NCBI GenBank assembly: GCA_009693105.1
Contig: SHXV01000006.1
Coordinates: forward strand, 1-46,573
Length of the DNA stretch: 46,573 nucleotides
Source of the DNA: Dehalococcoidia bacterium
Lineage (GTDB): Bacteria; Chloroflexota; Dehalococcoidia; SHXV01
Direction of reading: 5' to 3'
Shown here: positions 29,856 through 33,818 of the stretch, one piece after another
How positions within the stretch are numbered: the stretch's first letter is position 1
How the letters are laid out: each line of letters begins with the position of its first letter
Program-made: the position numbers and the translations under genes
Notes under the pieces: model-generated
Told to the model about the DNA's origin: nothing
The model's database searches: none
The model's input: the letters and a program-made list of their open reading frames with translations, nothing else

Positions 29856-30266
29856 TTACTTCACCGTTATCTTGCCGGTCATCTCCGCTGGGTGGAAATC
29901 GCACTTGAAGTCGTACGTGCCGGCCTTGCTGAACGTCGCAACCAGCTTGCCCGTTTGGCCGGCTTTGATGGCATCCGGGTTAGAGATGGTATCCTTCCCG
30001 TCCATCTTCACGTTCATATTATGAATCGCGCTGCCTTCGTTATTCAACTCAAACGTGATTTCTTTTCCTGCGGCAACGGTGATCCGGTTGGGCGAGAAAG
30101 AGTTGTCCTTTGTCGTCACCTTGACCGTTGTGGCAAGGGTTGCGGGATCAACGTTAGTGGACGCGTCATCCCCGCCCCCGCAGGCCGCCAGCATTGCGGC
30201 GAGCACGATCGCGCCGAAAATGGTTGTCAGCGCGCGGCCATGCCTGATCCGGAGCCCTGGTATCAT
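29856..30266 (-). CDS. Lipoprotein cupredoxin (plastocyanin-like)
   Basis: 136 residues. A signal segment ends in the lipobox LAAC (Cys29), so the protein is probably anchored outside the membrane. The cupredoxin domain has all four type 1 copper ligands in place: His82 (AIHNM), Cys122, His125 and Met129 (CDFHPAEM). It should carry one electron, probably from the Rieske/cytochrome c of the same operon to an oxidase. It is clearly paralogous to the C-terminal domain of the next gene upstream (shared NEGSAIHNM and KF(R/K)CDFHP). ATG 30266 follows AAGGAG; the longer track frame is antisense noise. Confidence 0.88.
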   Translation of the reverse strand: MIPGLRIRHGRALTTIFGAIVLAAMLAACGGGDDASTNVDPATLATTVKVTTKDNSFSPNRITVAAGKEITFELNNEGSAIHNMNVKMDGKDTISNPDAIKAGQTGKLVATFSKAGTYDFKCDFHPAEMTGKITVK

Positions 30267-30298: not shown

Positions 30299-31132
30299 TT
30301 ACTGAACGGTGATGGTACCGACCATATCGACGGGGTGGAAATCGCAGCGGAACTTGAGCGTGCCCGCGGCGGCGGCGGTGAAGCTCAGGGACGCCGTCCC
30401 ATTGGGGCGGACCGTGTCCGGGCTGGAGACGGTGTCGTCTGACGTGTCGTACTGGGCGTCCGTCCCGGCGATACGCATGTTGTGGATGGCGCTTCCCTCG
30501 TTTCGGAGGGAGATCGTCGCCGCTTGGCCCGCGGTCACCGTGATCAGCGCCGGATCGAAGGAGTTGTCCTTCATCGCGATGCCCCAGGCGCTCTTTGGGG
30601 GAGGTGGTGGACCGGTGGGCGTTGGAGCCGGCTTGTAAACCTGGCCGCAGGCACCCTGGTTGATCTGATCGGCCGTGGGCTGGGTTGGTTTGATGCCTAA
30701 CGTCTTGGTTTGCTCCGCTACCTGTTCCCAGCCATCGCCCGCGTTGGTGGTGATGAGGAGGACAAGCTGGCGAACCATCTCGTCGTTGAGGGAGCCGCCC
30801 TGCGCCTGCGCCCACGCCGGCATGAAGGTGCCGACCCGCCCGCAGACGATGGTGTTGCTGAGGCGATCCTGGAGCTTGGTCAGTTCCGCCGGGTTGGTGG
30901 GGCGATTCGCGGGCTTGTCCAGCATCGGACCGACAAAGCCTTCGCCCCGAAGACCGTGGCAGACGGCGCAGTTATTGGCGAAGAGTTCGGCGCCGTACTC
31001 TACGGAGGTCTCCAGCTGCCTGGCTTCGGCGTCCTGCTGGCGAGTGGGCTCCCAGACGGTGTACGCCAGCAGCCCGACGACAAGGAGCACGATGAGCGCC
31101 GTCATAACCTGTATCTGCTTTGTTGTGTTCAT
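30299..31132 (-). CDS. Membrane-anchored cytochrome c fused to a cupredoxin domain
   Basis: 277 residues: an N-terminal transmembrane anchor (about 8-27), a monohaem cytochrome c domain with CAVCH (Cys55, Cys58, His59) and sixth-ligand candidate Met104 (GTFMPAW), a Pro-rich hinge (TPTGPPPPP, about 170-180) and a C-terminal cupredoxin with His217, Cys263, His266 and Met270. Both redox centres have full ligand sets. Placed directly after the Rieske gene it takes the position of cytochrome c1 or f, with copper as an internal next electron carrier. A downstream gene encodes the same cupredoxin as a lipoprotein. Confidence 0.9.
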   Translation of the reverse strand: MNTTKQIQVMTALIVLLVVGLLAYTVWEPTRQQDAEARQLETSVEYGAELFANNCAVCHGLRGEGFVGPMLDKPANRPTNPAELTKLQDRLSNTIVCGRVGTFMPAWAQAQGGSLNDEMVRQLVLLITTNAGDGWEQVAEQTKTLGIKPTQPTADQINQGACGQVYKPAPTPTGPPPPPKSAWGIAMKDNSFDPALITVTAGQAATISLRNEGSAIHNMRIAGTDAQYDTSDDTVSSPDTVRPNGTASLSFTAAAAGTLKFRCDFHPVDMVGTITVQ

Positions 31133-31174: not shown

Positions 31175-31861
31175 TCAGGCGTTATAGGGCACCGCGCGCT
31201 TCGGGTTATCCGCTGCGCCCTGCGTGATTTTGCCGGTGTCGACTTCCACCGATCCGTTCGAGTTTACCTTGACCAGCATCGTGTCCAGCGGTCGGGGCGC
31301 CGGACCGAAGACGCGGACACCACCCTTGGTGTAGGTGGAGCCGTGGCAGGGGCAGCGGAACCAGCCGGTCTGGCCTTGAAACTGGAAGGTCCCAACCCAG
31401 GGGACTGTGCAGCCCAGGTGAGGGCACTTCTGGTAAAGCGCTAAGAGCCCACCCTTTCCATTTTCACCAAAATCGCCAAAGGCGCCTTCATCGGGCTTGA
31501 TGTTGACGAGCCAGAACTTGCCCTCAAGAATGCGCACCGGCTCTGTACCGGGTTTGGGTACGCGTTCCTTGGAGACGGTGAGGACACCGCCAAAGCCCAG
31601 GAGCTTGCGCGGCCACATGAAGTTCCAGAAGGAGTAGCCGGTGGCAAGCAGGGTCAGTCCCATGGCACCGAAGAATCCCCCGCGCAGAAATCCCCGGCGG
31701 CTTATTTCGTAGGCGCCACCGCGGGCCATGCGCTCATGTCGGGCGCGCACACGGTCGTCAAGGTTCGCCAACGGCGCCGCGGGGGGAGCCGCGGGCACGG
31801 CCACTTCAGCGGCGGGGGCCGCGTCCTCTCCCGGCTGCTTCGTCACTTCGTCTTCAGCCAC
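31175..31861 (-). CDS. Rieske iron-sulfur protein
   Basis: High-potential 2Fe-2S subunit of a cytochrome bc-type complex. 228 residues. After an unusual Ala/Pro-rich head of about 45 residues comes a twin-arginine signal SRRGFLRG (54-61) with its hydrophobic anchor. Box I CPHLGC gives Cys146 and His148; box II CPCHGS gives Cys170 and His173; Cys151 and Cys172 can form the stabilising disulfide. It is followed at 42 nt by the cytochrome c-cupredoxin gene and preceded by the two cytochrome b genes. Confidence 0.95.
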   Translation of the reverse strand: MAEDEVTKQPGEDAAPAAEVAVPAAPPAAPLANLDDRVRARHERMARGGAYEISRRGFLRGGFFGAMGLTLLATGYSFWNFMWPRKLLGFGGVLTVSKERVPKPGTEPVRILEGKFWLVNIKPDEGAFGDFGENGKGGLLALYQKCPHLGCTVPWVGTFQFQGQTGWFRCPCHGSTYTKGGVRVFGPAPRPLDTMLVKVNSNGSVEVDTGKITQGAADNPKRAVPYNA

Positions 31862-31887: not shown

Positions 31888-32763
31888 TTACGCGCCATGC
31901 GGGTGAATCGGAACTTCCCACGGAGGCACAAGGTTCTGGCCTTCCCCACGAAAGAACGTTCCGACAATAGTAAGGACGAGGAAGGCGGCCATGAAGCCGC
32001 TGAACAAGACGATCATGACGTCCCGTGTGGTGTGAACCCACCTGAACACTTTCTGGACCAGGACGAGTAGAACAGACAACCCGATTATCACCGTCATCGG
32101 GATAATCTGCTCCACCATGAACGCGACCAGATTGATCCCCCCCTTGTTCCAGTACAGGAAGACCTTGCGATCCCCGGCGAGGTTGATGTTATCGATTCCG
32201 AACGGGGCGGGGATGTTCGTGAGGTCGTTCGGATAGCGCAGACCGCCAAGGGTCCATTTCCAGTCCGTTTGCAGCGTCCGCAGTCCGCTCAGGCCCTTCC
32301 CATCGGGAAGGCCGGGGAACCAGCGGGTGTAGGGCTCGAATTTGCCGGCGTCGAACAGAATGAGGAGCCACATCAGAACGATGGTGGCACCCCAGGAGAA
32401 CAGGGCAATCTTGATCGAGTTCTCCGTCCCCCACCAGCGACCCTGGGCATCGGTCTTGCGGTCGATGTAGGGGATGGCGGCGAGCAGGACAAGCGCGATC
32501 GTGGGCACGGTAACACCGGCAAGGCCGGCTTCCATGTGCAGCAGGAGTTCCTGCAGGTTGAGCAGGTACCACGGCGCCTTGGATGGGTTCGGCGTCAGAT
32601 CCGGGTTGGCGTGGTTGAGCAGCGGCGCATCGATAGCGGTGGAAAGGATGAGCAGCGTGACGGAGAACAGCATGACCGCGATGAATTCAACAAAGACGAG
32701 ATCGGGCCAGACGAGGACCTCTTCTTCTCGTTCCCTGCGCGGCCGCGGCGTGGTTTCCGCCAT
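31888..32763 (-). CDS. Cytochrome b C-terminal subunit (subunit IV/PetD-like)
   Basis: 291 residues, longer than PetD (about 160). Hydrophobic segments near 30-50, 90-110, 130-155, 225-250 and 258-280. The quinol-site region reads NPSKAPWYLLNLQELLLH: the Glu of the common PEWY box is replaced (APWY), as in several bacterial b-type subunits. ATG 32763 (MAETTPRP) with GGGAG upstream replaces the track start at 32826, which overlaps the previous gene. It should complete the quinol oxidation site together with the b6-like gene. Confidence 0.85.
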   Translation of the reverse strand: MAETTPRPRREREEEVLVWPDLVFVEFIAVMLFSVTLLILSTAIDAPLLNHANPDLTPNPSKAPWYLLNLQELLLHMEAGLAGVTVPTIALVLLAAIPYIDRKTDAQGRWWGTENSIKIALFSWGATIVLMWLLILFDAGKFEPYTRWFPGLPDGKGLSGLRTLQTDWKWTLGGLRYPNDLTNIPAPFGIDNINLAGDRKVFLYWNKGGINLVAFMVEQIIPMTVIIGLSVLLVLVQKVFRWVHTTRDVMIVLFSGFMAAFLVLTIVGTFFRGEGQNLVPPWEVPIHPHGA

Positions 32764-32797: not shown

Positions 32798-33553
32798 CTA
32801 GAGCGGCCGGGCCATGCCGCCGTCACGCCGGATGCGCCAGAAGTGCACCGTCATGAATACCGCCGCCAGCAGCGGTAGGGCGATGACGTGCAGCGTGTAG
32901 AACCGGATGAGGGAGGTCTGCCCGATGCTGAAGCCGCCGAACAGAGTGAACTTGACGTCCCCACCAAGGACCGGCGCCGAGCCGGCGATGTTGCTGCCGA
33001 CCGTGATCGCCCAAATGGAGAGCTGGTCCCACGGAAGCAGGTAGCCGGTAAAGCTGAGCAGGATCGTAAGCACCAGCAGCACCACACCCACCACCCAGTT
33101 GAACTCGCGGGGCGGCTTGTAGGCGCCGGTGTAGAACACGCGCATCATGTGGAGGAACACCAGGATTACCATGGCATGCGCCATCCAGCGGTGCATGTTG
33201 CGCATAAGCAGGCCGAACTGAACATCGGTCTCCAGCGCCTTCATGTTGATGTATGCCGTTTCTGTGGAGGGGATGTAGTAGAACATGAGCAGCACGCCGG
33301 TCACGGTGAGCCCAAGGAACATGAAGAAGCTCAACCCGCCCAGACAGTAGGTGTGGGTTATCTTGACGTGCGTGCGGTGGATCCGCGTGGGGTGGAGGTG
33401 GAGGAAGACGTTCGTGGCGACAACGAGCATCTGGTTGCGGGGAGTGTTGGGGTAGCCCGATCGGAACACGGAGCGCCAGATATAGTTCTGAAAGAGCAGC
33501 GCGTAAATGCGCTCCCCAAGCCCTGGTTTTCCGGGCTGTTCTGTCACAGCCAT
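32798..33553 (-). CDS. Cytochrome b6-like subunit of the bc complex
   Basis: 251 residues with four transmembrane helices. Haem ligands are His121 and His135 in helix B and His222 and His237 in helix D; the 15-residue step in helix D is the b6 spacing, not the mitochondrial 14. PWDQLSIWA follows helix C as in PetB. Cys70 in THTYCLGG aligns with the b6 cysteine (FYCLGG) that binds the extra haem ci. Energy coupling by menaquinol oxidation is expected. It lies 13 nt after a 34-codon membrane peptide gene. Confidence 0.93.
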   Translation of the reverse strand: MAVTEQPGKPGLGERIYALLFQNYIWRSVFRSGYPNTPRNQMLVVATNVFLHLHPTRIHRTHVKITHTYCLGGLSFFMFLGLTVTGVLLMFYYIPSTETAYINMKALETDVQFGLLMRNMHRWMAHAMVILVFLHMMRVFYTGAYKPPREFNWVVGVVLLVLTILLSFTGYLLPWDQLSIWAITVGSNIAGSAPVLGGDVKFTLFGGFSIGQTSLIRFYTLHVIALPLLAAVFMTVHFWRIRRDGGMARPL

Positions 33554-33566
33554 GAAATCCCCTCCG

Positions 33567-33671
33567 TTACCGCTGCCACCACTGGCCGAACGCCACCATG
33601 ATCCCCAACGATACGAAGATCGTGATAAACACCGCGATCAGCTCTCTCGCTTCGCCAACAGCGCCGAACAT
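33567..33671 (-). CDS. 34-residue single-helix membrane peptide heading the bc operon
   Basis: MFGAVGEARELIAVFITIFV followed by SLGIMVAFGQWWQR: one hydrophobic helix with a charged N-side and a Trp-Trp-Gln-Arg end. ATG 33671 has GGAGGG 7 nt upstream, better than the longer track start at 33818, which begins on the promoter. It is first in the operon, 13 nt before the b6-like gene. Small one-helix subunits are known in b6f complexes (PetG, PetL, PetM, PetN), but I cannot match it to any of them. Confidence 0.7.
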   Translation of the reverse strand: MFGAVGEARELIAVFITIFVSLGIMVAFGQWWQR

Positions 33672-33789
33672 CGCGCATCCCTCCGCCCAGGCCGGTCGTT
33701 CCACCCGGCGGAACCGACCGTTCAACGCTTGCGCACCCGGGGACATGACCGAATTTGGACCGCTTGTGAAGAGTATTGCAAGCTCAGGC

Positions 33790-33818
33790 AATCTAGCATC
33801 AGGGGTCACCAGTGTCAA
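33790..33818 (-). promoter_or_regulatory. Promoter of the respiratory operon
   Basis: Minus strand TTGACA (33818-33813), 17 bp, TAGATT (33795-33790). The -35 lies in the last codons of the glycosyltransferase gene. The leader to ATG 33671 is about 110 nt, in which I see no terminator. Confidence 0.7.

Follow-up and report, generated by a model that had tools for sequence, protein, structure and literature searches.

The question raised by this locus is how electrons leave a cytochrome bc complex when a single chain carrying both a haem and a copper domain stands in the place of cytochrome c1 or f. The window, meaning the whole analysed stretch of 46,573 nucleotides from a Dehalococcoidia bacterium, belongs to a bin of 1.23 Mb that is 83.6% complete and alone in its order.

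The sequence-only reading had placed the gene at 30299-31132. These limits were retained, and the coding strand was found to be the minus strand, with stops present on the plus strand of the same interval. The frame, running from 31132 to 30299, is single and uninterrupted, starts with MNTTKQ and is preceded by a plausible ribosome-binding site; a split into two separate genes was thus not observed. An assembly or frameshift artefact was ruled out, since the same fusion occurs in dozens of independent assemblies.

In the Pfam search, both Cytochrom_C and Cupredoxin_1 (1.7e-11, residues 185-276) were matched within the one chain, each exceeding its curated cut-off. The anchor, the CAVCH motif, Met104, the proline hinge and the four copper ligands were all confirmed as described (Table 1). 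In an alignment of 13 homologues the fully conserved residues include C55, C58, H59, M104, H217, C263, H266 and M270, together with C97 and C162. The cytochrome part carries CxxCH and a downstream axial Met, and the C-terminus carries His, Cys, His and Met on a cupredoxin fold with the spacing C-x2-H-x3-M. The C-terminal domain is accordingly predicted to form a type 1 (blue) copper site and would bind the metal through these four residues. Cys97 and Cys162 co-occur in 75 of 75 complete Dehalococcoidia members, and the cysteine of the CGR motif is absent from 20 of 20 members of other Chloroflexota classes; the two residues may form a disulfide closing the cytochrome domain.

Table 1. Features of the fusion gene and its operon (coordinates refer to the window).
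Feature	Coordinates	Strand	Basis or remark
Cytochrome c-cupredoxin fusion, 277 aa	30299..31132	-	Anchor, monohaem cytochrome c, proline hinge, predicted type 1 copper domain
Transmembrane anchor, residues ~8-27	31052..31111	-	Sequence; MNTxKQ start conserved in family; model helix 3-54
Cytochrome c domain, residues 44-125	30758..31003	-	Pfam Cytochrom_C 3.1e-8; invariant residues
CAVCH haem motif, residues 55-59	30970..30956	-	Within cytochrome c domain
Axial Met104	30823..30821	-	Within cytochrome c domain
Cys97	30844..30842	-	Within cytochrome c domain
Cys162-Gly-Gln (CGQ), then Pro-rich hinge up to residue 180	30593..30649	-	Conserved; Cys162 codon 30649..30647
Cupredoxin domain, residues 181-277	30302..30592	-	Pfam Cupredoxin_1; four ligands; auracyanin fold match
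Predicted copper ligands	His217 30484..30482; Cys263 30346..30344; His266 30337..30335; Met270 30325..30323	-	
Rieske [2Fe-2S] protein	31175..31861	-	Pfam PF00355 1.2e-8
Subunit IV-like C-terminal half of cytochrome b	31888..32763	-	Pfam Cytochrom_B_C 1.8e-5; operon order conserved
b6-type cytochrome b, N-terminal half, 251 aa	32798..33553	-	Pfam 1.2e-47; PDB cytochrome b6 5.6e-51; motifs
Stand-alone lipoprotein cupredoxin	29856..30266	-	Pfam Cupredoxin_1 1.4e-18; LAAC lipobox; CDFHPAEM
Small ORF, one C-terminal transmembrane segment, upstream of cytochrome b	33567..33818	-	Start and membership uncertain

The AlphaFold model, calculated with the family alignment, reached a mean pLDDT of 80.4 and a pTM of 0.58. 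The cupredoxin part was well predicted (pLDDT about 78-96), and its best PDB match by Foldseek was Roseiflexus auracyanin (6kol, E 1.3e-8). Confidence was low in the hinge (pLDDT < 50) and poor around residues 99-112, and the model does not give the interdomain geometry. Auracyanin comes from phototrophic members of the same phylum and works with alternative complex III. Unlike the domain described here, it is a separate protein, and the two are about 25% identical over the matched part.

The minus-strand gene order is small transmembrane ORF, b6-type cytochrome b, subunit IV, Rieske protein, fusion and lipoprotein cupredoxin. The fusion therefore lies directly after the Rieske gene of a b6-like operon, in the cytochrome c1/f place, as had been proposed. 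A paired-histidine cytochrome b, a Rieske protein and a c-haem subunit within one operon are the parts of a bc/b6f complex. Cytochrome b is split, its nearest PDB match is cytochrome b6, and the cysteine of YCxGG, the predicted attachment residue of an extra c-type haem, is aligned between the two. The histidines of its two pairs are separated by 13 and 14 residues, which is the b6 pattern; this spacing was counted in 93 of 98 rows and YCxGG in 87 of 98.

The subunit IV frame opens at 32826, with the Met at 32763 as the likelier start. Its Qo motif reads APWY and lacks the acidic residue of PEWY/PDWY, a form common to 75 of 78 Dehalococcoidia rows. Since variants of the Qo motif are known elsewhere, the missing acidic residue does not exclude a bc complex. 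The stand-alone cupredoxin, about 48% identical to the copper domain of the fusion, is a possible next electron carrier. The small ORF gave no Pfam or NCBIfam match; over its last 28-57 residues it resembles ORFs that precede cytochrome b in several relatives, and it is a possible small subunit.

Among Pfam families, the fusion matched only Cytochrom_C, Cytochrome_CBB3 and Cupredoxin_1 above cut-off, and no match to cytochrome f or c1 was obtained. It has one CxxCH, not the two of QcrC, and scored 34.2 bits with NF050122, the NCBIfam model of QcrC, against a cut-off of 200. Judged by its parts, the complex is a bc complex, with a c-subunit that is neither QcrC nor cytochrome f/c1.

The query was matched in 82 of the 393 genomes of the class Dehalococcoidia (E 1e-25), and a scan of GTDB species yielded 72 loci, nearly all titled Chloroflexi, Chloroflexota or Dehalococcoidia. 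Every complete operon fetched contained cytochrome b, subunit IV, the Rieske protein and then the same cytochrome c gene, L122 being the sole exception in gene order. Recurrence of the neighbourhood had been put forward as a check, and co-occurrence with Rieske/cytochrome b genes was seen in every operon examined.

The N-terminal half of the family is constant and consists of the MNTxKQ anchor, CxxCHG, CGRxGTxMP and then CGQ. The C-terminal half is variable. Some members have a cupredoxin whose ligands are spaced C-x2-H-x3-M or C-x2-H-x2-M; other forms are a C-x4-H-x4-M cupredoxin, a second cytochrome c domain, and a helical tail without a redox motif. Two proteins (L035, L036) end in two cupredoxins in tandem. 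In other Chloroflexota classes, the same slot holds two haems in 12 of 20 operons, three haems in 2 and a haem with a cupredoxin in 6.

In some members the haem is separated from the last domain by LysM repeats or other repeated modules, and the chain reaches up to 757 aa. The LysM type characterises family f34 (L049, L050, L055, L057, L065, L066), where the repeats separate the haem and copper domains; three stretches pass in L050, and the remaining members were judged by sequence. Such an arrangement would suit a bc subunit that is attached to the cell wall or passes through it. The c-subunits of L046, L059 and L070 measure 676-757 aa, and the insert of L046 is made of repeated VERGxxGTxAxxHxxG modules. 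Three Rieske-matching ORFs lie between subunit IV and the fusion at L037:5726-7520. In L270 and L271, from other Chloroflexota classes, a trihaem c-subunit adjoins an unsplit, longer cytochrome b.

The main feature of the family, absent from the sequence-only reading, is the exchange of the copper domain with a second cytochrome c domain. Across 95 complete Chloroflexota operons, the C-terminal state was a cupredoxin in 52, at least one further haem domain in 39 (two or more CxxCH in total, as in QcrC) and no redox domain in 4. Loss of ligands in homologues with the same context had been named as an observation that would count against the reading. All 52 copper-type proteins retain His, Cys, His and Met as well as CxxCH, across several ligand spacings, whereas in other lineages the same slot holds a second haem or no redox domain at all.

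On the cytochrome b plus Rieske tree of 98 operons, about ten changes of the last domain are needed among the complete rows. Seven changes are needed in a mixed clade of 35 Dehalococcoidia on the careful tree, which covers a 47-row subset only, most other trees being quick ones. The root is not secure, and these counts carry no direction. Within this mixed clade, grouping all copper rows or all haem rows into one clade was rejected by AU tests (p 9.9e-6 and 1.3e-34, respectively), and a single gain or loss of copper there was ruled out by the same tests.

The exchange point of the relatives lies just past the CGQ/Pro-rich hinge region in the alignment. The copper-type L097 and the haem-type L085 and L103 are aligned through CGQF...AADIRGRDP and diverge only in the Ala/Pro-rich hinge, and their N-terminal parts are closely related to one another. 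This kinship, together with divergence only at the hinge, indicates that a domain was exchanged and not the whole gene. Replacement of the whole gene was also disfavoured by the N-terminal cytochrome c of mixed neighbours, which groups as the core does.

It is thus reasonably likely that the terminal carrier of the Chloroflexota bc complex is a plug-in domain. Tethered cytochrome c and blue copper would have been swapped repeatedly at one junction of the c-subunit, a membrane-bound parallel to the exchange of soluble plastocyanin and cytochrome c6. The outcome would be copper-based wires from complex III to IV without soluble cytochrome c.

The fusion itself is, with good probability, the c-subunit of a b6-type menaquinol-oxidising cytochrome bc complex, with the tethered cupredoxin as its electron-exit domain. 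Occupation of the same slot by a second haem in relatives fits such an exit role. Menaquinol, the quinone type expected from the kind of complex and the organism, would give up its electrons at cytochrome b and the Rieske cluster, the Rieske domain then reducing the membrane-anchored haem of the fusion. From this haem, electrons would pass over the proline hinge and reach the type 1 copper. Swinging on its tether, the copper domain would reduce the terminal acceptor, most likely CuA of an aa3 or caa3 oxidase, either directly or via a separate cupredoxin such as the neighbouring stand-alone one. The tethered copper would thereby do what the second haem does in dihaem QcrC of actinobacteria. The internal haem-to-copper relay suggested earlier remains the best reading, as far as sequence allows.

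The acceptor side was approached through the oxidase genes. No match to COX1 or COX2 was found in the window's own bin (83.6% complete), and its only Cytochrom_C match is the fusion gene. COX1 was present in 21 of 21 operon-bearing relatives at least 90% complete. Of the 45 genomes in which an oxidase locus was examined, 28 are copper-type and 17 haem- or none-type; a cupredoxin gene adjoins the aa3 oxidase in 19 of the 28 and in 0 of the 17, counted within about 4.2 kb of COX1 or, in the few loci where COX1 was missed by motif, by distance to the same fetched oxidase stretch. In each of the 17 haem- or none-type genomes, oxidase subunit II carries a fused cytochrome c. The association is confounded by clade: independent pairs were not significant, with one to three informative and all concordant. 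A strict pairing of copper exit with oxidase type was not upheld with independent pairs and is suggestive only, caa3 tracking clade and not metal; several copper-type genomes have a caa3 oxidase without an adjoining cupredoxin. The pattern points to copper both at the exit of complex III and at the entry to complex IV, in an association that follows clades.

Further cupredoxin fusions were recorded at oxidase loci. Oxidase subunit IV is joined to a cupredoxin at L222:6992-7708 (Pfam) and, by similarity to L222 in motif and HMM only, at L297:6089-6844; oxidase subunit II is joined to one at L224:1417-2646. Proteins with a C-terminal cupredoxin adjoin aa3 oxidase genes at L205:42-1067, L206:544-1572 and L220:6559-7815, and in L205 and L220 a weak ABM-like match is joined to that cupredoxin.

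Alternatively, the cupredoxin could be an entry or branch domain that exchanges electrons with a partner other than the oxidase, such as an enzyme acting on nitrite, iron or sulfur, possibly with the complex running in reverse. The lack of a COX1/COX2 match in the own bin and the separate cupredoxin gene after many of the operons are compatible with this, and Chloroflexota nitrite reductases, as well as some NOR types, are known to carry fused cupredoxin or cytochrome c domains (PMC8756737). It is nevertheless unlikely, given the constant presence of COX in the near-complete relatives, the cupredoxin genes adjoining oxidase operons, and the swap at this position with a second haem, which fits an exit domain.

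It is quite improbable that the copper domain lies off the main electron path, acting as a copper buffer or in partner docking or stabilisation of the complex, with the haem alone reducing the acceptor. Lineage f21, without any C-terminal redox domain, indicates that the haem alone can suffice, and the LysM repeats and long haem-copper inserts of other lineages suggest structural roles. However, oxidase subunit II of the f21 genomes checked includes a fused cytochrome c, the replacement in 39 operons is again a redox domain, and the four ligands are kept throughout the copper-type proteins despite several spacings.

That the operon is a selenite/tellurite-reduction (Ext) system is highly improbable: the window's cytochrome b scores 293.3 bits with NF040969 (ExtP) against a cut-off of 290, but the weak ExtQ match of subunit IV reaches 59.9 against 150, so that the two do not pass jointly, and the operon also encodes a Rieske protein and a cytochrome c, conserved across the class in genomes that have aerobic oxidases. 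The ExtP match more likely reflects the shared b6-type cytochrome b, and an automatic annotation of this gene as ExtP may be a misnaming.

The exit-domain reading can be set beside several known systems. Subunit II of caa3 oxidase combines a CuA cupredoxin and a cytochrome c in one chain. It differs from the fusion in its reverse domain order, in having CuA instead of type 1 copper and in being part of complex IV; several relatives contain both fusions.

In mycobacteria, dihaem QcrC links complex III to IV without soluble cytochrome c (PMC4505504, PMC8361435). This subunit (cytochrome cc of the actinobacterial bcc complex) is likewise a membrane-anchored, two-centre c-subunit of a bc complex, whereas the fusion has a predicted type 1 copper as its second centre, an N-terminal anchor and a split b6-like cytochrome b. 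Cytochrome b6f shares the b6-type cytochrome b, subunit IV and Rieske protein, and its copper carrier plastocyanin and haem carrier cytochrome c6 serve the same downstream step (PMC13036084). Its exchanged carriers are separate soluble proteins, in contrast to the tethered domains of Chloroflexota, and the fusion gave no match to a cytochrome f domain.

The view of cytochrome c and plastocyanin as normally separate proteins proved too simple, as three-domain copper nitrite reductases have a tethered cytochrome c or cupredoxin, with haem and type 1 copper in one chain (PMC13324648). There the tether belongs to a different enzyme and feeds a catalytic copper, not a bc-complex exit. The role of that tethered domain is disputed (PMC13324648), which was counted against the exit-domain reading. 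No description of a haem-cupredoxin bc subunit was found in the open-licence papers searched, which is weak evidence of absence. Tethered haem and copper domains being already known from nitrite reductases, the new part within that literature appears to be their placement in a bc complex.

The usual recipient of an electron from the haem of a bc complex is a separate protein, replaced in actinobacteria by a second haem within the complex; in the fusion, this internal recipient would be copper. About ten exchanges of the exit metal appear to have taken place, with the other parts of the complex remaining recognisably alike. Close complexes differing mainly in a copper or iron exit, such as L097 and L085, would offer a natural experiment on why one metal or the other is used for the same task and on whether metal supply governs that choice. 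The hosts include many uncultured Dehalococcoidia of marine, soil and groundwater habitats, and the class, best known for anaerobic dehalogenation, would here possess an aerobic chain.
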